A DNA stretch of 64,000 nucleotides, taken from contig JAWBRV010000007.1 in the NCBI GenBank assembly GCA_038843675.1, positions 1 to 64,000 of the forward strand, given 5' to 3'. The notes beneath the pieces were generated by a model. The model worked only from the letters and a program-made list of their open reading frames with translations, made no database searches and was not told where the DNA came from. This document shows, piece after piece, positions 7,427 through 63,501 of the stretch; positions within the stretch are counted from its first letter, which is position 1, and each line of letters begins with the position of its first letter. The translations under genes and the position numbers were made by a program. The stretch is from Candidatus Bathyarchaeia archaeon. GTDB lineage: Archaea > Thermoproteota > Bathyarchaeia > 40CM-2-53-6 > CALIRQ01.

Positions 7427-9109
7427 TTATTTGGCCTCCCCCCTCAAGGATATCAGGGCCGCCTCGATCTCCCTCTCGGCCTTCTCCCCGCGCTTCCTTG
7501 AGGCGGATAGGAGCGAATTATAAACTTCCTTAGAGATCCTCCCGCTCCTGTATTGGGCCCTGAGTTGGCTTTCGGAGGCCTTGGCGGCCTCTATCTCCGC
7601 TTCGGCCCTCTCGATGCCCCCTATGAGCTCGGCGTACCTCGGGTCGCCCTTCTTGAGCCCATCCTTGACCGGGGCTAAGGCCCTCTCTAGCTCCTTGATC
7701 CTCTCTTCCGCCACCTTCCTTCTTCGCTTATATTCGTTCTTCCCGATACCCCCCCTAAGCAACTCCTCCTCCATCCTCTTCAAATTGAGCCTGAGCGCGT
7801 TCTTCTCCCCATATAGGTCGACGAACTTCTTCAATAGCTCTGCCAAGGGCCCGGCCTTAGGCCGGGCGCCCCTCTTGGAAATGCCGACCGCGACTGCTCC
7901 AAGGAGGATCGCCTCGAGGGCGAAGGCCCATCCCAAGGGCTTAAGGGCCGACCAAAATGGGTTGAAGGAATATTCCAAGCGAACCCTCGGCTTGGATATC
8001 GGTGAGATCGGGCCGAGGCTGTAGATGAGGGTGCTCGCATAGGCCTCCTCGCGCATCCTTATGGGAGCCGGCTCCGCCGACCTTAAGCTGAAGCCTCTCG
8101 GAAGCGAAATTGTTGCACTGGCGCCCTCGGCGAAGCCGGGTATCGGCGGGATCAATTCAAGCTCTATCCCCCGGCTCTCGAAACCCTTCCCCCGCTTTAC
8201 CGCTTCCTCTTTGGGGATTCGGAACGATACCGTGAAGGAGAAGCCTTCCGAGAACCTCACGTTCTTGAACCTAGGCCTAACGGTGACGTTGAGGGAATCC
8301 CCCGGCCCCCTGTGGATCGTTTGAGGGAGGGCGCCCCCCGCATCTTCGGCAACCACCCGCTCGGCACCCTTGGCCAGAGGCACCATTACGCCATCGATGG
8401 ACCTTTGGCATAGGTTCCTAACGGAATAGGAATCCTTGACGATCAAATCGCCGGATTCCTCAAAGGTTATGCTCCTTTCCAAGGATTCCACCTTCAGCAG
8501 CCTCTGCTCATATGATGTGAAATCTATGACGAATTCCTTATCCAAGTATGGCTCCAAAGGGGCGAGCGAGGCCCTAAGGACTAAGGCCATACCCTCCCTG
8601 CTGACCGAGAATATGGGGCCCTCGCCGAGGGATACCTTGGCATCCCCAGGGAGGAATATCTGGACGGTGCAATTCTCGATGGGCGCCTTGAGCATTGGGA
8701 AGGGATTGAGGCGCAAATAGAACTTCAACGCCCCATACGAGAGGAGGCCATCGAAGGCCGAATAAAGCGTCAAGCTTCGGGATCCCCCGCCCCCGGATGG
8801 GGGCCTCGCGCTCAACCATCGCGCTCCCGCCTCGGCAACCTCCCGAACGGCCACTTCCACTCCGGAACTATCGATGGCCCTCCATTCCTTCATAGAGGAG
8901 GCCATGCTCCCGGGGAACCCTACCTCGATCGCTTCCAAAGCGCTCGCCTCCCCCTCAATCCTATCCGCTATCACGACGCTGCCCCAATTTGCCACGATGA
9001 CCTCCCTATGGATCCGAAGCGGCTCGGGATTGCCTTGGGCGCTCGCTTGGCTCAGGATTGAGCTGAATATGAGGACGATCGCGAGAACCATTCCCAATCT
9101 CTTCATCAA
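7427..9109 (-). CDS. Single-pass membrane protein resembling ribophorin I (OST subunit), with cytoplasmic coiled coil
   Basis: 560 residues: a signal peptide (VLAIVLIFSSILSQASAQ), an ectodomain of about 390 residues, one transmembrane helix (AFALEAILLGAVAVGI, about residue 400) and a charged C-terminal helical region with heptad character (about 415-555). The ectodomain has features reminiscent of eukaryotic ribophorin I: RSITFEESGDLIVKDSY, an ISLPRGF block, and a pre-membrane LEYSFNPFWSALKP. These are similarities by eye, not a proven homology. A role beside an oligosaccharyltransferase is a guess; no AglB gene is in the window, though glycosylation genes flank it. Otherwise a secreted protein of unknown function. 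Confidence 0.55.
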   Translation of the reverse strand: MMKRLGMVLAIVLIFSSILSQASAQGNPEPLRIHREVIVANWGSVVIADRIEGEASALEAIEVGFPGSMASSMKEWRAIDSSGVEVAVREVAEAGARWLSARPPSGGGGSRSLTLYSAFDGLLSYGALKFYLRLNPFPMLKAPIENCTVQIFLPGDAKVSLGEGPIFSVSREGMALVLRASLAPLEPYLDKEFVIDFTSYEQRLLKVESLERSITFEESGDLIVKDSYSVRNLCQRSIDGVMVPLAKGAERVVAEDAGGALPQTIHRGPGDSLNVTVRPRFKNVRFSEGFSFTVSFRIPKEEAVKRGKGFESRGIELELIPPIPGFAEGASATISLPRGFSLRSAEPAPIRMREEAYASTLIYSLGPISPISKPRVRLEYSFNPFWSALKPLGWAFALEAILLGAVAVGISKRGARPKAGPLAELLKKFVDLYGEKNALRLNLKRMEEELLRGGIGKNEYKRRRKVAEERIKELERALAPVKDGLKKGDPRYAELIGGIERAEAEIEAAKASESQLRAQYRSGRISKEVYNSLLSASRKRGEKAEREIEAALISLRGEAK

Positions 9110-23016: not shown

Positions 23017-24023
23017 ATGAAGCCCCCTTGGGCGATGCCAAGGGAGATCGTGGTGAAAAGCGAGGACACCACGGACCCGAACTACGGGTGGGATCCATAT
23101 AAAAGGCCGCTGGAGGAGCACCTTAGGTATGGCATGATAAATCTGGACAAGCCGCCCGGGCCCTCGAGCCACGAGGTCACCGCTTGGGTGAAGAGGATCC
23201 TCGGGGTCAGGAGGATCGGGCATGGCGGGACCCTAGGGCCGATCTACGGCGGGGCGATCCCAAGGTCACCGGGGTCCTCCCAATAGCCCTCGAGGAGGCA
23301 ACCAAGGTACTCAAGGCCTTCCTATTGTCTGGGAAGGAATACGTATGCCTCATGATACTCCATGGGGAATCCAGCGAAGGCGATATTAGAAGACTCTTTG
23401 AGGAATTCACCGGGCCGATCTTCCAAAAGCCGCCGCTCAGGGCATCGGTCAAGAGGGCCGTAAGGGTCAGGGAGATATACAGTTGCGAGTTGCTTGAGAT
23501 GGCTGGTAGGAAGGTCCTATTCAGGATAGCTTGCCAATCCGGGACGTACATAAGGAAGTTCTGTTCCGATCTGGGCCAAGTCCTCGGCTTCGGCGCTCAT
23601 ATGGCCGAGCTCAGGAGGATAAGATCCGGGCCGTTCGAGGAGGGGAAAAACCTTTACACGCTCCATGACTTAGTGAGGGCGAAGAACGAATATGAGAGGA
23701 ATGGCGATGAATCAGCCCTCAGGGAGGTCGTTAGGCCCCTGGAGGAGGCTTTGGAATATGTGCCCAAGGTATATATAAGGGATTCTGCGGTGGACGCGAT
23801 CTGCCATGGCGCCAACTTGGCAATACCTGGCATAGTGAAGTTGGATAAGCATATGGAAAAGGGGGCCACGGTGGCCATCATGACCCTGAAGGGGGAGGCT
23901 GTCGCCCTTGGCGAGGCCTTGATGAGCACGGAGGAGGTAATGGAGCTCGAGAAGGGAATCGCCGTGAAAACGGATAGGGTCGTGATGAGGAGGAACCTCT
24001 ACCCGCCTTGGAAGGGCAAATAG
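23017..24023 (+). CDS. cbf5: tRNA/rRNA pseudouridine synthase Cbf5, interrupted by a 20-nt intron
   Basis: Catalytic subunit of H/ACA RNPs and tRNA Psi55 synthase. Exon 1 (23017-23236) encodes the N-terminus, [20 protein letters not shown] and GHGGTL; exon 2 (23257-24023) continues with [14 protein letters not shown], the thumb, [13 protein letters not shown] and a PUA domain. Between them 20 nt put the two halves in different frames. Excision (23237-23256) joins CTA-GAT-CCC = Leu-Asp-Pro, so the catalytic Asp (residue 74 of 328) is rebuilt exactly at the splice. ATG 23017 is chosen because it follows the TATA box AATTTATAAG (22977-22986) by about 35 bp and matches the family opening PPWxxPRE. 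Introns in crenarchaeal cbf5 genes near this site are known; here the length is strikingly small. Confidence 0.93.
23237..23256 (+). other. 20-nt archaeal pre-mRNA intron with bulge-helix-bulge motif in cbf5
   Basis: The flanks and insert fold as a perfect BHB. Outer helix GGGA (23227-23230) pairs with TCCC (23258-23261). The central 4-bp helix is CCCT (23231-23234) with GGGG (23251-23254). The bulges are AGG (23235-23237) and CGA (23255-23257). The inner helix GCCG (23238-23241) pairs with CGGC (23247-23250), closed by the loop ATCTA. Cutting both bulges at the equivalent position removes 20 nt; a one-base shift (23236-23255) gives the same product. The tRNA-splicing endonuclease is the expected enzyme. 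Confidence 0.9.
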
Positions 24024-25641: not shown

Positions 25642-27108
25642 TTATAACAGCTTTCCCAGCTCCCTTTTGATGATCTCATACGTTAATTTCGGGTCGGCCT
25701 TACCCCTCGTCTTCTTCATCACTTGGCCTATCAGGAAATTAACGACCTCCTCATCGCGCAGGGCCTCCTTGACGGCCTCCTCATTCTCCTCGAATACCTC
25801 CTCGATCACGCGCTGAAGTAGGGCCTCGTCGGATATCTTCAGCAAGCCCCTCTTCCTCACAATCTCTTCGGGCGATTCATCGGACCTCAGGGATTCCATA
25901 AGCACCTCCTTCGCGATCTTCGTGCTTATCGATCCCGATCTTATCAAATTTACCAGTTCGACTATCTTCCTCGGGCTAACGCGCGGATCGGTTAGCTCCA
26001 TCCCGAGCTCCCTCGTGAAAGATATCAAATCCCCAACCAACCAGTTGCTCACCTCAATGGGATCCCCGCCCATTTTAACGCATTCCTCGAAGAGCCTTGA
26101 AAGGGCGTTATCGGAGCTTATGAGCTCGGCGTTATGCTCCTTCAGGCCGAACTGCCTTATGTATCTCTCCTTCTTTTGATCCGGGAGCTCCGGCAACCGC
26201 CTTCTTATCTCCTCTATGAAATCCTCCGTTATTTCTATCGGGACTATATCGGGCTCGGGAAAGTACCTATAATCCTCTTCCTCCTCCTTGGCCCTTAGGG
26301 ATACCGTTATCTTCCTCACCTCGTCCCAATGCCTCGTCTCGCGCCTAACCTTGATATCTCTCGACAGCAATTGCCTCTGCCTAGTTATCTCGAATGCGAG
26401 GGCCCTCTCGACTTCCTTGAAGCTCGATATGTTCTTTATCTCGACCCTCGTTCCCCCGCCGAGCGATATGTTCGCATCGCACCTCATGGCGCCCTCCAGC
26501 TCCCCATTGGAAACCCCTAAGCATTCTAAGATCCCCCTTAACTTCTCCAAGAATGCCCTAGCCTCCCTTGGATCCTCCATATCCGGCTCGGTGACTATCT
26601 CCAATAGGGCGATCCCAGCCCTGTTGTTGTCGACAAGTGTGGCCGTTGAATCGTCTATAGTCCCTTCATAAGCCAACTTGGCCGGATCCTCCTCGATCTG
26701 TATCCTCCTTATCCTGATCCTCTTCCCCCCCTCTATGCTCAGGAATCCCCCTTTGGCCAGCGGAACACCTCCTCCACCGTCGTATTGGCTTATCTGGAAA
26801 TTCTTCGGTAAGTCCGGATAGAAATAGTTCTTCCTGAAGAAGGTCATCCGCTTGGATATCTCCGAGTTAAGGGCTATGGCGACCGCCACGCCATCTTCTA
26901 TGGCCCTCCTATTCGGAGAGGGCAGCGATCCCGGGAGCCCCATGCAGATTGGGCAAATATGCGTATTCGGCGGGGAACTCCTATAATCCGCGGGGCATCC
27001 GCAGAATAGCTTAGTCCTGAGATTGGTCAGCTGACAATGTATCTCCAAGCCTATCCTTATGCCCGCATCGCTCAATCCCGCGCTCACCAGCTCACGCGAG
27101 CTCCTCAA
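25642..27108 (-). CDS. gatB: Asp-tRNA(Asn)/Glu-tRNA(Gln) amidotransferase subunit B
   Basis: 488 residues. GatB phosphorylates the misacylated tRNA-bound Asp/Glu before amidation. The cradle domain shows RIGLEIHCQLTN, the zinc site FCGCP...ICPICMG (four Cys), LPKNFQISQYD, ALLEIVTEPD and CDANISL. The C-terminal YqeY tail ends FLIGQVMKKTRGKADPK. It overlaps gatA by 17 nt and is last in the gatC-gatA-gatB order, downstream of aspS. Confidence 0.96.
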   Translation of the reverse strand: MRSSRELVSAGLSDAGIRIGLEIHCQLTNLRTKLFCGCPADYRSSPPNTHICPICMGLPGSLPSPNRRAIEDGVAVAIALNSEISKRMTFFRKNYFYPDLPKNFQISQYDGGGGVPLAKGGFLSIEGGKRIRIRRIQIEEDPAKLAYEGTIDDSTATLVDNNRAGIALLEIVTEPDMEDPREARAFLEKLRGILECLGVSNGELEGAMRCDANISLGGGTRVEIKNISSFKEVERALAFEITRQRQLLSRDIKVRRETRHWDEVRKITVSLRAKEEEEDYRYFPEPDIVPIEITEDFIEEIRRRLPELPDQKKERYIRQFGLKEHNAELISSDNALSRLFEECVKMGGDPIEVSNWLVGDLISFTRELGMELTDPRVSPRKIVELVNLIRSGSISTKIAKEVLMESLRSDESPEEIVRKRGLLKISDEALLQRVIEEVFEENEEAVKEALRDEEVVNFLIGQVMKKTRGKADPKLTYEIIKRELGKLL

Positions 27109-38960: not shown

Positions 38961-39908
38961 GTGAGAATTGGGCCAGCCCGATCCACTGGATTGGCCCCCG
39001 CCAAGGCCATATTGATTGGTGAGCACTTCGTCGTGAGCGGGGCCACAGCTATCGCGATCGCCATAAACCTTTACGCCAAGGCCAGCGCCAGCTTGGCGCC
39101 GCGGGGCTCGATATCGATATCGGCCCAAGGCTTAAACATGCGCGATGAGAGGGCGGGAGCGTTCGATCCGCTGATTTCGATGACGAAGGCCTTTCTCGAG
39201 CGCTATGGGATCGACCAAGGCATTAGCATTTGGTTGAGCTCTGAGATCCCGCTATCGGCCGGGTTGGGATCCTCAGCGGCCATAGCCGTTTCAATCCTCG
39301 CGGCCCTATCAAGCCTATTCGGGATAAGGCTAAGGCGAGAGGAGATGTTCGATCTGGCATTCGTTTCGGAGAGGATCCTGCACGGGAGCCCCTCGGGGAT
39401 AGATCACGCGACATCCATCTACGGAGGAGCCATCGCCTACTCGCCCTCGAGGGGTTTCCGAAGGCTCTCCGTCGACAAGGAGATCTCCTTGGTGATCGGG
39501 GATACCTTGAAGAGGAGGTCGACGAGGGAGCAGGTCCTTAAGGTCCAAGATTTTTTAAGGAGGAACCCAGAGATCGCGAGGGAGGCATTCGAGAAGATCC
39601 GGGAGATCTCGGAGGGCGCGATCTCCTGCTTGGAGGGGGGAGATATGGAGGGGCTCGGGGAATTGATGAACGAGAACCAAGCTTTGTTGTCCAAGATCGG
39701 GGCCTCCTCCGAGGAGCTCGATAGGTTAATAGAAGCCTCCCTCAAAGCCGGGGCCCTCGGGGCGAAGCTCACTGGGGCCGGAGGGGGCGGTTGCATGATA
39801 GCCCTCGGCCCGCCAGAGGCCTTGGGGGCGATCGAGGAATCGATAAGGAGGGCCGGGGGAATCCCTTATAGGGTTAGGATGGACAGGGTGGGCTTTAGGG
39901 CGATCTGA
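38961..39908 (+). CDS. mvk: Mevalonate kinase
   Basis: GHMP kinase making phosphomevalonate. ATP loop ASPLSAGLGSSAA-type IPLSAGLGSSAAIAVSILA, N-terminal APAKAILIGEHFVVSG, SPSGIDHATSIYGGAI and C-terminal KLTGAGGGGCMIAL. The frame opens at 38913, but GTG 38961 (MRIGPARSTG, about 315 aa) has a strong GGAGGAGGGG ribosome-binding site at 38943 and starts just before the first strand. It leads the isoprenoid group. Confidence 0.93.
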   Translation: MRIGPARSTGLAPAKAILIGEHFVVSGATAIAIAINLYAKASASLAPRGSISISAQGLNMRDERAGAFDPLISMTKAFLERYGIDQGISIWLSSEIPLSAGLGSSAAIAVSILAALSSLFGIRLRREEMFDLAFVSERILHGSPSGIDHATSIYGGAIAYSPSRGFRRLSVDKEISLVIGDTLKRRSTREQVLKVQDFLRRNPEIAREAFEKIREISEGAISCLEGGDMEGLGELMNENQALLSKIGASSEELDRLIEASLKAGALGAKLTGAGGGGCMIALGPPEALGAIEESIRRAGGIPYRVRMDRVGFRAI

Positions 39909-47681: not shown

Positions 47682-49433
47682 ATGGGAACGATGGGCTTGG
47701 AGGAGATACGGGAGCTCGCGAGGAAGCTGGCCCTTCAAAACGCCGTTAAGCATGGCGGGAGGGCCGACGCGAGGGCGACATTGGGCAAGCTCTTGGCCGA
47801 GAGGGGGGAGCTGAGGCCTAGGGCCAAGGAGATCGCTGAACTCGTTAAAGGGGTCGTGGAGGAGGTCAACAAGATGGGATTCGAGGAGCAGATGCGGGAG
47901 CTGGGGCCGTTGGGAGGGATCGAGGCCGAGCGGAAGCGAAAGGAGGAGGCAAGGGCCCTGCCCCCGCTTCCCAATGCCGATAAATATCCCCGGATAGTCA
48001 CTAGGTTCTCCCCGAACCCGGATTGCGTCCTGCACTTGGGCTCGGTTAGGGCCGCCATCCTGAGCCACGAATACGCTAGGATCTATGGCGGGAAGTTCAT
48101 CCTGAGGTTCGAGGACACGGATCCGAGGCTGAAGAGATCCTCGTTGGAGTTCTATGAGGCCATACGCTCCGACCTGCGCTGGCTCGGATGCGAATGGGAT
48201 GAGGAGTATATACAGAGCGATAGGCTCCGGATCTATTATGACCTAGCGGAGGAATTAATCGAGCGCGGGGGAGCATACGTTTGTACATGCGATAGGGAGG
48301 CCTTCAGATCGCTCGCCTTGGCCGGGAGGGCATGCCCATGCAGGGATCTGGGGCCGGGGGCCCATTTGGAGCGATGGGGGAGGATGCTCTCGGGCGAATA
48401 TGGGGAGGGCGATGCGATCGTCAGGGTCAAAACGGACCTCGGGCATCCGAACCCGGCCGTGAGGGATTGGCCGGCCTTGAGGATAATAGACCCCGAGAGA
48501 TATCCACATCCTAGGGTCGGGAGCGCTTACAGGGTTTGGCCGCTTTACAACTTCGCTTGCGGCATAGACGACCATCTGATGGCCGTTACGCACGTCATAA
48601 GGGGGAAGGAGCATTACACGAACATGGTGAGGCAGAAGTACATGTATGCCCATTTCGGCTGGGAGTACCCGGAGGCGATCCACTACGGAAGGCTGAAGGT
48701 TAGTGGGGCGGAGCTCAGCAAATCGAAGATATTGAAGGCCGTGGAGGCCGGCCTAGTGGAGGGCTTCGGGGATCCGAGGCTGCCGACCTTGGCGGCCCTC
48801 AGGAGGCGAGGGATATTGCCCGAGGCCCTCAGGAGGCTGGCGATCGAGGTCGGGCCGAAGCCCGTCGACGCCACGATAAGCTGGGAGAACTTATACGCGC
48901 AGAATAGGAAGCTCATCGATCCGATCGCCAACAGGTATTTCTTCATTCCGGATCCAGTCTTGGTGAGGATTAGGCGGATGCCCGGGCCGATCGAGGCGAT
49001 GTTGCCGCTCCACCCGGAATTTCCGGATCGCGGCCATAGGGTGATAAGGGCGGAGCCCGAGAACGGCACCGCAGAGCTCCTCATGCCCAAGTCGGACATA
49101 TGCCGCTTAGGAGCAGGCGCGATCGTGAGGCTCATGGGCTTGATGAACGTGAGGATCCTGAGCGTTTGGGGCGATGGGGCCGAGGCTGAATACGAGGGGA
49201 GATCGCCCGAGCCCGCCAAGAGGGCGGGCGTTCAGATAATTCAGTGGCTTCCCAAGAGGGAGAACCTGAAGGTCGAGCTCGTTAAGGAGGATGCCGAAAG
49301 GCTTACAGGGGTCGGGGAGGTTGGGCTATCCGGCGAACCCGTTGGAGCGATCATCCAACTCGTCAGGATCGGATTTGGGAGGATCGACGAAAAGGGCCAC
49401 ATGGGCGTTAGGATATACTTAGCCCACGCTTAA
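47682..49433 (+). CDS. gltX: Glutamyl-tRNA synthetase, archaeal type
   Basis: 583 residues. N-terminal archaeal extension of about 100 residues, then the class I HIGH variant in FSPNPDCVLHLGSVRAA, FEDTDPR, and the KMSKS-equivalent GAELSKSKI; the C-terminal part is the beta-barrel anticodon domain of archaeal/eukaryotic GluRS. The Cys/His cluster CTCDREAF...ACPCRDLG suggests a zinc site. ATG follows directly on the egsA stop. Confidence 0.95.
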   Translation: MGTMGLEEIRELARKLALQNAVKHGGRADARATLGKLLAERGELRPRAKEIAELVKGVVEEVNKMGFEEQMRELGPLGGIEAERKRKEEARALPPLPNADKYPRIVTRFSPNPDCVLHLGSVRAAILSHEYARIYGGKFILRFEDTDPRLKRSSLEFYEAIRSDLRWLGCEWDEEYIQSDRLRIYYDLAEELIERGGAYVCTCDREAFRSLALAGRACPCRDLGPGAHLERWGRMLSGEYGEGDAIVRVKTDLGHPNPAVRDWPALRIIDPERYPHPRVGSAYRVWPLYNFACGIDDHLMAVTHVIRGKEHYTNMVRQKYMYAHFGWEYPEAIHYGRLKVSGAELSKSKILKAVEAGLVEGFGDPRLPTLAALRRRGILPEALRRLAIEVGPKPVDATISWENLYAQNRKLIDPIANRYFFIPDPVLVRIRRMPGPIEAMLPLHPEFPDRGHRVIRAEPENGTAELLMPKSDICRLGAGAIVRLMGLMNVRILSVWGDGAEAEYEGRSPEPAKRAGVQIIQWLPKRENLKVELVKEDAERLTGVGEVGLSGEPVGAIIQLVRIGFGRIDEKGHMGVRIYLAHA

Positions 49434-53890: not shown

Positions 53891-55336
53891 GTGCGTCGCG
53901 AGATGACGAAGGCCAGTTTGGAAGCGGCCCTGAGCGAGATACTAACGGAGAAATATTTCTCTAACGACCCGAACGTTGCGATCGCCTATGTGAGGGATAC
54001 GGGCATATTCGAGGGGTTCCCGCCCGAGGAAGTCGTCAGGCCCGGGAGCGCGGAGGAGGTCTCGGAAATCCTGAAGGTAGCTAACGCGGAGCGGAAGCCC
54101 GTGGTCATAAGGGGAGGGGGCTCCACCTACACTGGGTCCTGCGTCCCCTTGAGGGAGGGGACGATCCTCATGGATCTGACAAGGTTGGATGACGTCATCG
54201 AGATCGACGAGGGCGCTAGGTCCATAACGGTTCAAGCCGGCATAAATTGGGGCAAGATGATGACGATCCTTAGGCAAAGGGGCTATACCCCGGGCATGAC
54301 GGGTCCGGGGAGCGGTTGGACGGCTACAGTCGGCGGATCGGCATCTGTTGCCAGCACAGGCGGGGGTAGGGCCAAGTTCGGGGGCATTTGTGATCAAATA
54401 CTGGGCCTACAAGTCGTCCTCCCGACGGGCGAGATAATAAGGACGGGCTCGAGGGTGAATCCCTACGCCAAGGCCTTCTGCCGATATGGCCTTGGGCCCG
54501 ATATGACGGGCCTCTTCTTGGGCGATCACGGCATATTCGGCGTTAAGACGGAGGTCACAATGAGGATCCATCCATTGGCCAAATCCATAGCCCATTTCGA
54601 ATATGCATTCAGATCCGAGGAGAAGGCCATAGAGGCATTCGCTGAGATCGGCAAGGTCAATGAATTGGCGACGAGCATAAACCTCTATGATGCCGACTAC
54701 GTCTCCTACTCGGCCAAGAGGCCCGGATATGCCTATCTCTCCGGAGTCGAGGGGGAGGTCCTCGGGACGATAACCGCCCAAAGCGAGAAGCTCGCGCTGG
54801 CGCAGAAGGAGATATTTGATGAAATCGCGAGGAAGCACGGCGGGGAGGAATTGGAGCCGAAGAGGGCAAAGCATGCCTACGAGAACACATTCTTCCCCTA
54901 TAATACCTATTTCTGGATGAGGCGTGATAGCGGGATATACCTTTGCCTCGCGAACCAGAACAGCGCCGATAGCCTCTTGAGGGTGATAAAGGGATATAGG
55001 GATTTCCTTAAGGCCCATAGGGACGTGGTCGATAAATACTTCGAATATCAGGGCATAACCGTCCAGACCTATATGAGGCACATTACCATGTCCGCTAGGA
55101 GATACCTCCCATGGAAGTTCGATATGGATCCCGAGGCTAGGAGGATAGCGATGGACTTTTGGACTAAGGAGATAGACTTCTTCATAAGGAATGGCGCCGT
55201 GCATTACTGGATCGGGAAGATCGTCGGGGATAGGCTTTACATACTAGTTTCCAAGGAGTATCATGAGTTCCTCAAGAAGGTCAAGAGGGTCCTCGATCCG
55301 AACGGGATACTGAACCCGGGATTGTTCCTGCTTTAG
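53891..55336 (+). CDS. FAD-linked oxidase, GlcD/lactate dehydrogenase-like
   Basis: 481 residues (GTG 53891 or ATG 53903). FAD-binding type 4 domain: VVIRGGGSTYTGSCVPLREG, GSGWTATVGGSASVASTGGG, YGLGPDMTGLFLGDHGIFGV. The C-terminal cap ends RVLDPNGILNPGLF, as in GlcD and D-lactate dehydrogenases. It probably oxidises a 2-hydroxy acid and passes electrons to the Fe-S protein encoded just downstream. Confidence 0.88.
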   Translation: MRREMTKASLEAALSEILTEKYFSNDPNVAIAYVRDTGIFEGFPPEEVVRPGSAEEVSEILKVANAERKPVVIRGGGSTYTGSCVPLREGTILMDLTRLDDVIEIDEGARSITVQAGINWGKMMTILRQRGYTPGMTGPGSGWTATVGGSASVASTGGGRAKFGGICDQILGLQVVLPTGEIIRTGSRVNPYAKAFCRYGLGPDMTGLFLGDHGIFGVKTEVTMRIHPLAKSIAHFEYAFRSEEKAIEAFAEIGKVNELATSINLYDADYVSYSAKRPGYAYLSGVEGEVLGTITAQSEKLALAQKEIFDEIARKHGGEELEPKRAKHAYENTFFPYNTYFWMRRDSGIYLCLANQNSADSLLRVIKGYRDFLKAHRDVVDKYFEYQGITVQTYMRHITMSARRYLPWKFDMDPEARRIAMDFWTKEIDFFIRNGAVHYWIGKIVGDRLYILVSKEYHEFLKKVKRVLDPNGILNPGLFLL

Positions 55337-62727: not shown

Positions 62728-63501
62728 CTAGATATCGATCGCCGATAAATCCTTGGGGAGTATGACCTCCCCGCCGAACCTCGCCGCCGCCTGCCTCCTT
62801 ATCAATCTCTCCTTCCCGAAGCAGGCGCTCCCGATGTGGAATAGGGCGAGCCTCCTCGCCCCAGCCCTTTCGGCATCATCGCCCGCATCCCCCGCCGTCG
62901 AATGGCCTTGGGAGTGGGCCTCCTCGGCCCGATCGTCCGGGTAGGTGGAGTCGTGGAAGAATATATCGGCCCTCCTGCCCAAGGCGACCGCGTTCGAGCA
63001 GGGCCTAGTATCGCCCGTATAAGCGAATATCCTCCTCGGCCTCTCGGCCTCGACCCTTATGCCGTTCGCCGCGACCTTATGGTCGACCCTCAGGCATGAG
63101 GCCCTGAGCCCCTCCTCTATGAAAGGCTCGCCATCGCCCGGGAGGCCCTTGAGCTCTATTCGGAATCGGCCCGGTTTGTTAAATAGGGAGAAGGCCTCGA
63201 GGAGGCGAACGGCCCTCCATTCCTCGCCGAGCGGCAAATAAATCGGGAGCGCCTCCCTGCGCCCCTTTCTCCCGAGGAGGTGCACTAGGGCCGGCAGGCC
63301 ATATATGTGCTCTGGATGGGCATGGGTTATGAATATGCCCCATATCTCGAGCGGGCTTAGGGATAGCCTCGCCATCTTATGGGCCACCGAGCCCGGGCAA
63401 TCTATGAGTAAGTATCTGCCCCCCGCATCAAGCAGCAGGGAGGCGTTGTCCCTCCTTGGGGCCGTGGTGGCGGCCGAGGTCCCGAGCACGTAGGCCCTCA
63501 T
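62728..63501 (-). CDS. RNase Z-like metallo-beta-lactamase fold hydrolase
   Basis: 257 residues. Begins YVLGTSAATTAPRRDNASLLLDAGG as in RNase Z-like proteins; metal motif THAHPEHIYGL (HxHxDH with Glu for Asp), FAYTGDTRPC, FFHDSTYPDD, then HSTAGDAGDDAERAGARRLALFHIG. Missing parts of the RNase Z exosite suggest a related arylsulfatase- or PqqB-like enzyme rather than tRNA 3' processing. Substrate unknown. Confidence 0.8.
   Translation of the reverse strand: MRAYVLGTSAATTAPRRDNASLLLDAGGRYLLIDCPGSVAHKMARLSLSPLEIWGIFITHAHPEHIYGLPALVHLLGRKGRREALPIYLPLGEEWRAVRLLEAFSLFNKPGRFRIELKGLPGDGEPFIEEGLRASCLRVDHKVAANGIRVEAERPRRIFAYTGDTRPCSNAVALGRRADIFFHDSTYPDDRAEEAHSQGHSTAGDAGDDAERAGARRLALFHIGSACFGKERLIRRQAAARFGGEVILPKDLSAIDI

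Follow-up and report, generated by a model that had tools for sequence, protein, structure and literature searches.

A predicted 20-nt bulge-helix-bulge intron in the catalytic Asp codon of a bathyarchaeal cbf5 gene and its counterparts in other archaea

Introns in the pre-mRNA of cbf5, which encodes an RNA-modifying enzyme that is essential, have been described for Sulfolobales and Desulfurococcales, in which they are located between letters 1 and 2 of an Asp codon and measure 16-44 nt, the Acidianus intron being 20 nt long (Yokobori 2009; PMC2738675). At the identical position, cDNA of spliced RNA or cleavage in vitro was reported for Sulfolobus, Aeropyrum and others, and the 2009 survey dated the gain of the intron to the common ancestor of the two orders and raised the ideas of a regulatory function and of precise loss by way of spliced RNA (PMC2738675). 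A 2020 paper names the crenarchaeal cbf5 intron as the only additional bulge-helix-bulge (BHB) intron reported and describes, as an addition of its own, a haloarchaeal 5' UTR that undergoes BHB processing (PMC7714728). In the open-access papers found, cbf5 introns are the only archaeal coding-sequence introns with confirmed splicing. No open-access paper was found on such introns in Bathyarchaeia, Asgard or Aigarchaeota; subscription or preprint reports may exist.

We analysed a cbf5 gene with a 20-nt insert in a stretch of 64,000 nucleotides (the window; contig JAWBRV010000007.1, positions 1 to 64,000). The host is a bathyarchaeon (Bathyarchaeia) whose genome assembly comprises 1.36 Mb in 20 contigs and is 97.7% complete. 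Upstream of cbf5 are secY and genes for an adenylate-kinase-like protein, an EMC3/TMCO1-like protein, a cytidylate kinase and a small KOW protein, the last of which is read as ribosomal protein L14e. The features of the locus are listed in Table 1; the start codon was assigned from homologues, and those of the same genus begin likewise.

Table 1. Features of cbf5 and its predicted intron in the window (a slash marks the predicted cut).
Feature	Position	Strand	Details	Basis
cbf5 exon 1	23017..23236	+	ATG 23017 to letter 1 of catalytic Asp codon	sequence; TIGR00425 and Pfam DKCLD and TruB_N on spliced protein
Outer helix, 5' strand GGGA	23227..23230	+	pairs with 23258-23261	RNAfold
Central 4-bp helix, 5' strand CCCT	23231..23234	+	in exon; pairs with 23251-23254	fold and covariation
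5' bulge AG/G	23235..23237	+	predicted cut 23236/23237	known cbf5 intron position rule; fold
Predicted 20-nt BHB intron GGCCGATCTACGGCGGGGCG	23237..23256	+		frame restoration; BHB fold; same-position introns in relatives
Inner helix and loop	23238..23250	+	GCCG 23238-23241 / CGGC 23247-23250; 5-nt loop ATCTA 23242-23246	fold; same-genus comparison
Central helix, 3' strand GGGG	23251..23254	+	in intron	RNAfold
3' bulge CG/A	23255..23257	+	predicted cut 23256/23257	fold; known cbf5 intron position rule
cbf5 exon 2	23257..24023	+	Asp codon letters 2-3 to stop TAG 24021-24023	
Outer helix, 3' strand TCCC	23258..23261	+	in exon 2	RNAfold

The gene is split after letter 1 of the catalytic Asp codon and, as an earlier note on this DNA had observed, its two parts occupy different frames. 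Excision of 23237-23256, with cuts after nucleotide 2 of each bulge, gives ACC-CTA-GAT-CCC-AAG (TLDPK) and thereby the Leu-Asp-Pro junction that the note had proposed; the boundaries AG/G and CG/A, between nucleotides 2 and 3 of each 3-nt bulge, restore the cbf5 frame. The spliced protein is a full-length Cbf5 of 328 aa (...GHGGTL-D-PKVTG...), matches TIGR00425 as a single stretch (residues 10-323, 457.9 bits) and contains the Pfam domains DKCLD, TruB_N, TruB_C_2 and PUA. It aligns without a gap at the junction to archaeal Cbf5 structures, and the junction Asp aligns with TLDP of Pyrococcus-type Cbf5 structures. With the intron retained, translation stops 16 codons past the preceding Leu codon and without the catalytic Asp, so that splicing would be needed for any active Cbf5. 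A search of the host genome for a second intact cbf5 found none, and the gene is single-copy.

All coordinates that the note had assigned to a BHB at 23227-23261 are exact, and the minimum free energy (MFE) structure from RNAfold is identical to the one it drew. Its description of the BHB as perfect is right in that the hBHBh' is complete and slightly generous in that one of the four central pairs (CCCT/GGGG) is a U-G wobble. The comparison it made with crenarchaeal cbf5 introns was well chosen, since those introns also interrupt the Asp codon after its first letter (Yokobori 2009; PMC2738675).

RNAfold predicted the complete hBHBh' as the MFE structure of the 35-mer 23227-23261 (-14.8 kcal/mol, 68% of the ensemble), and the BHB also stands within the MFE structure of a 55-nt segment. 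With flanks of about 30 nt or more the ensemble at 37 °C favours another fold and the probability of the central helix is about 0 in most contexts, whereas at 60-75 °C the BHB is back at about 0.4-0.7 in nearly all flank contexts. Folding during transcription would favour the local BHB hairpin. The fold z-score of the 35-nt segment is only -0.65 and uninformative as proof of an intron. Nor does the frequency of the motif serve as proof, strict motifs being common by chance in the window: the plus strand has eight strict 4/4/4 hBHBh' structures compared to 2-5 per block-shuffled copy. Other strict hBHBh'-like structures on this strand are located at 7843-7878, 26866-26904, 39466-39501, 49118-49151, 54111-54147 and 63255-63290, and their number is close to that expected by chance. 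The BHB of cbf5 on its own is thus not beyond chance in this window. When the 20 nt of the intron were shuffled, a central helix together with an inner helix of at least 4 bp was obtained in 0.2% of the shuffles. What stands above chance is the coincidence of the BHB with the frame break in the catalytic codon, together with conservation and covariation in relatives.

Conservation was assessed in a census of 299 cbf5 loci in which calls were made by protein motif alone and RNA structure or a BHB was not a requirement. The exon 1 motif was G-x-[GA]-G-T-L with upstream DKP/SHE, and the exon 2 motif was P-x-V-T-G-x-L-P followed by K-x-Y. Calls were obtained for 291 loci; of the eight non-calls, which include L105, inspection by eye showed five to be intronless and two to be intron-bearing (L312, L324). 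The comparison of cbf5 in related genomes that the note had suggested yielded 176 introns (157 distinct) at the identical Asp-codon position, with lengths of 13-41 nt plus a single one of 76 nt, and all three phases are represented. An insert in this codon is present in 34 of the 35 sampled genomes of the host's order and in 29 of the 38 from the rest of the class, and the Bathyarchaeota records JAGTQO010000078 and VBBD01000025, probably from the same order as the host, carry the same intron. Across these sampled genomes the intron is therefore a clade-wide trait and not peculiar to the host genome. Intron-bearing genomes comprise most Bathyarchaeia, members of Caldarchaeales and of many other families of Thermoproteota, and representatives of at least three Asgard lineages; genomes were partly picked for likely introns, and fractions outside Bathyarchaeia are not prevalences. 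Caldarchaeales-type introns include those of Terraquivivens (L044, 20 nt) and Pelearchaeum (L104, 22 nt). Among Asgard, introns were found in Jordarchaeia (L039, 31 nt; L040, 32 nt; L062, 35 nt), Freyarchaeota (L033, 32 nt), Borrarchaeum (L076, 31 nt) and other members of that phylum (L198-L206); many of these introns (L033, L039, L040, L062, L076, L198-L206) have compensated CACT/AGTG-type central helices, and many Asgard intron-bearing genes encode GHAGTL in place of GHGGTL. No intron was found in the sampled Euryarchaeota, in Methanomethylicia-type genomes or in most of the sampled Asgard.

Introns of 13 nt at the same codon were observed in L285, L286, L293, L296, L307, L321, L323 and L325. 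They occur in several non-bathyarchaeal families of Thermoproteota, are shorter than the 16-nt minimum of the 2009 survey, and keep the central helix with essentially no inner helix; 17-nt introns in the census have inner helices of 3 bp. The earlier suggestion that the insert of 20 nt is close to the smallest that can form a full BHB does not hold, as published introns go down to 16 nt, Acidianus has one of 20 nt, and the census contains introns of 17 and 13 nt. The longest intron by far, 76 nt in L225 (G102:C70), is possibly an older or expanded form. Two intron-bearing genes, L197 (G404:C131) and L207 (G435:C57), each lie on a second contig of an Asgard MAG. In the Cbf5 tree both are placed apart from the other Asgard rows, L207 inside Bathyarchaeia; they are probably on misbinned contigs and were excluded from the counts of representative introns and from the Asgard evidence.

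Of the 157 distinct introns, 147 have an intact central helix of 4 bp. Shuffling the introns left a mean of 5.7 of 157 intact (maximum 15), swapping them among exons left 98.7 of 157 on average (maximum 108), and when the partner was slid by one base, no more than 4 of the 126 representatives, down from 117, kept a complete helix. On the tree, central pairs 2 and 3 switch type at least 8 and at least 11 times, respectively, nearly always on both sides (CG/TA/AT). The central helix between exon 1 and the intron is thus kept by covariation. Of 128 genes with an intron, 106 use CTA for the Leu codon that contributes its last base to the 5' bulge; among 81 intronless genes, 9 do. The outer helix is complete in the intron of the window; across the census it is frequently lacking, with 0-1 bp in 74 of the 157 introns, and in this the census introns resemble the relaxed motifs described for crenarchaea. 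Retention of any of the 126 representative introns would ruin the protein, through a frame shift in 99 and an in-frame stop in 27. Where the exons of the three same-genus genomes differ, they do so mostly at the third position of a codon (in exon 2, 86 of the 112 differences between the host and G001), and both exons are under purifying selection. The introns of these genomes vary only in the loop, which is distinct in each of the three, and the stems are constant.

On the basis of this anatomy and conservation, 23237-23256 is almost certainly a cbf5-type BHB pre-mRNA intron that is removed by the tRNA-splicing endonuclease. In the mechanism that we propose, the nascent cbf5 transcript would fold locally into a BHB with the two bulges straddling the splice sites. 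An EndA alpha/beta heterotetramer would then cut after nucleotide 2 of each 3-nt bulge and free the 20 nt, after which the exons would be ligated, most likely by RtcB, rebuilding the catalytic Asp codon G/AT. Two proteins with PF01974 were found in the host genome. G000:C19 aligned nearly end to end with the catalytic EndA subunit of A. pernix (3p1z) with identical Tyr, His and Lys, and in G000:C2 both EndA domains are present and the His and Lys are absent. Judged by these alignments, the host encodes an EndA alpha (G000:C19) and a structural-type beta subunit (G000:C2), with the heterotetramer as the predicted assembly, which is the type of set tied to cbf5 splicing in crenarchaea. RtcB was sought in the host MAG and not found; it was found in 38 of the 41 genomes searched, including both same-genus genomes. 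Since the host genome is 97.7% complete, its lack of RtcB is probably an assembly gap. In five genomes (G020, G022, G023, G037 and G038) the RtcB frame is about 1000 aa long and the domain is interrupted near profile columns 46-59, which suggests an intein in the RNA ligase.

The history of the intron was examined on Cbf5 trees, on which its state changes at least 22 times (FastTree, 209 rows) or at least 14 times (IQ-TREE quick, 89 rows). Within Bathyarchaeia at least 8 changes are needed. Rows that lack the intron sit within groups that have it (L003 next to L015, and also L037, L066, L069 and L094), and the tree therefore makes it very probable that the intron was present in the ancestor of Bathyarchaeia and was precisely lost several times. 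With the exception of L197 and L207, the Asgard intron-bearing genes join other Asgard sequences or form separate deep lineages outside Bathyarchaeia, and are thus not simple contamination. The deep forks of the tree are weak, no single branch separates the Euryarchaeota rows from the rest, and the Cbf5 trees thus do not separate one ancient gain from several. As the same codon is interrupted in Bathyarchaeia, Caldarchaeales and Asgard, either the gain lies much deeper, on the side leading to eukaryotes, or insertion was repeated. At somewhat less than even odds, the intron is one inherited element that predates the TACK/Asgard split, was repeatedly lost by precise deletion and shrank to 13 nt in some lineages; the alternative, a series of independent insertions into a single codon, would be just as strange. 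If the element is indeed that old, the cbf5 intron would be among the oldest known protein-coding introns.

The overlapping frames and the hairpin superficially look like a recoding site, at which programmed frameshifting or bypassing would read cbf5 across the insert and the stem would serve as a signal for recoding, not as a substrate for splicing. Frameshifting had at one time been the mistaken reading of the first three cbf5 examples (PMC2738675). Spliced cDNAs at the corresponding position have been reported from other archaea. The inserts of relatives measure 13-76 nt, fall in all three phases and in many cases contain in-frame stops, so that no single shift decodes them; a programmed ribosomal frameshift site was set aside, there being no fixed frame offset common to the homologues. 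Moreover, conservation falls on the 4-bp helix between exon and intron and on the pair of 3-nt bulges, all of them features of an endonuclease substrate, and recoding is accordingly very improbable. A pseudogene, or an assembly or sequencing error, would be suspected from a MAG contig in which automatic annotation would call a frameshift. This reading has next to no likelihood given that both other genomes of the genus carry the same insert with different loops, that nearly all sampled genomes of the order have it at the same codon, and that the genome has no other cbf5 while both exons are under purifying selection. In such MAGs, annotation may well treat cbf5 as broken, and ordinary gene finders miss intron-bearing genes.

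The intron might also be kept as a regulatory switch, in which unspliced cbf5 mRNA lowers the output of pseudouridine synthase and ties rRNA and tRNA modification to the capacity of the splicing enzyme; this would add a function to the intron explanation and replace nothing in it. A role as negative regulator was put forward by the discoverers (PMC2738675), and the precise position of the intron in the catalytic codon even among very distant lineages and the temperature-dependent competition of alternative folds with the BHB in longer contexts are in line with it. Against this, the repeated losses in Bathyarchaeia and the absence from many archaea indicate that the intron is dispensable, and its persistence could reflect the mere lack of a deletion mechanism. 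We consider such a switch unlikely.

The intron described here has the same gene, position, BHB-type boundaries and size range as the cbf5 intron of Sulfolobales and Desulfurococcales (Watanabe 2002; Yoshinari 2006; Yokobori 2009). It differs in its bathyarchaeal host, whereas the open-access papers confine theirs to two crenarchaeal orders, and in its complete hBHBh', most of the crenarchaeal structures drawn in the 2009 paper being unconventional (PMC2738675). With the hBHBh' introns of archaeal tRNAs it shares the 4-bp central helix, the two 3-nt bulges and the cuts after bulge nucleotide 2, but it lies in an mRNA, outside a tRNA body, and has to leave an intact reading frame when removed. 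The introns of archaeal rRNAs likewise have BHB boundaries and depend on the splicing endonuclease; they often contain homing endonuclease genes and are mobile, whereas the cbf5 intron of the window is far too short to encode anything. The type of intron is therefore already known, and its range over Bathyarchaeia, Caldarchaeales and Asgard exceeds the open-access literature found.
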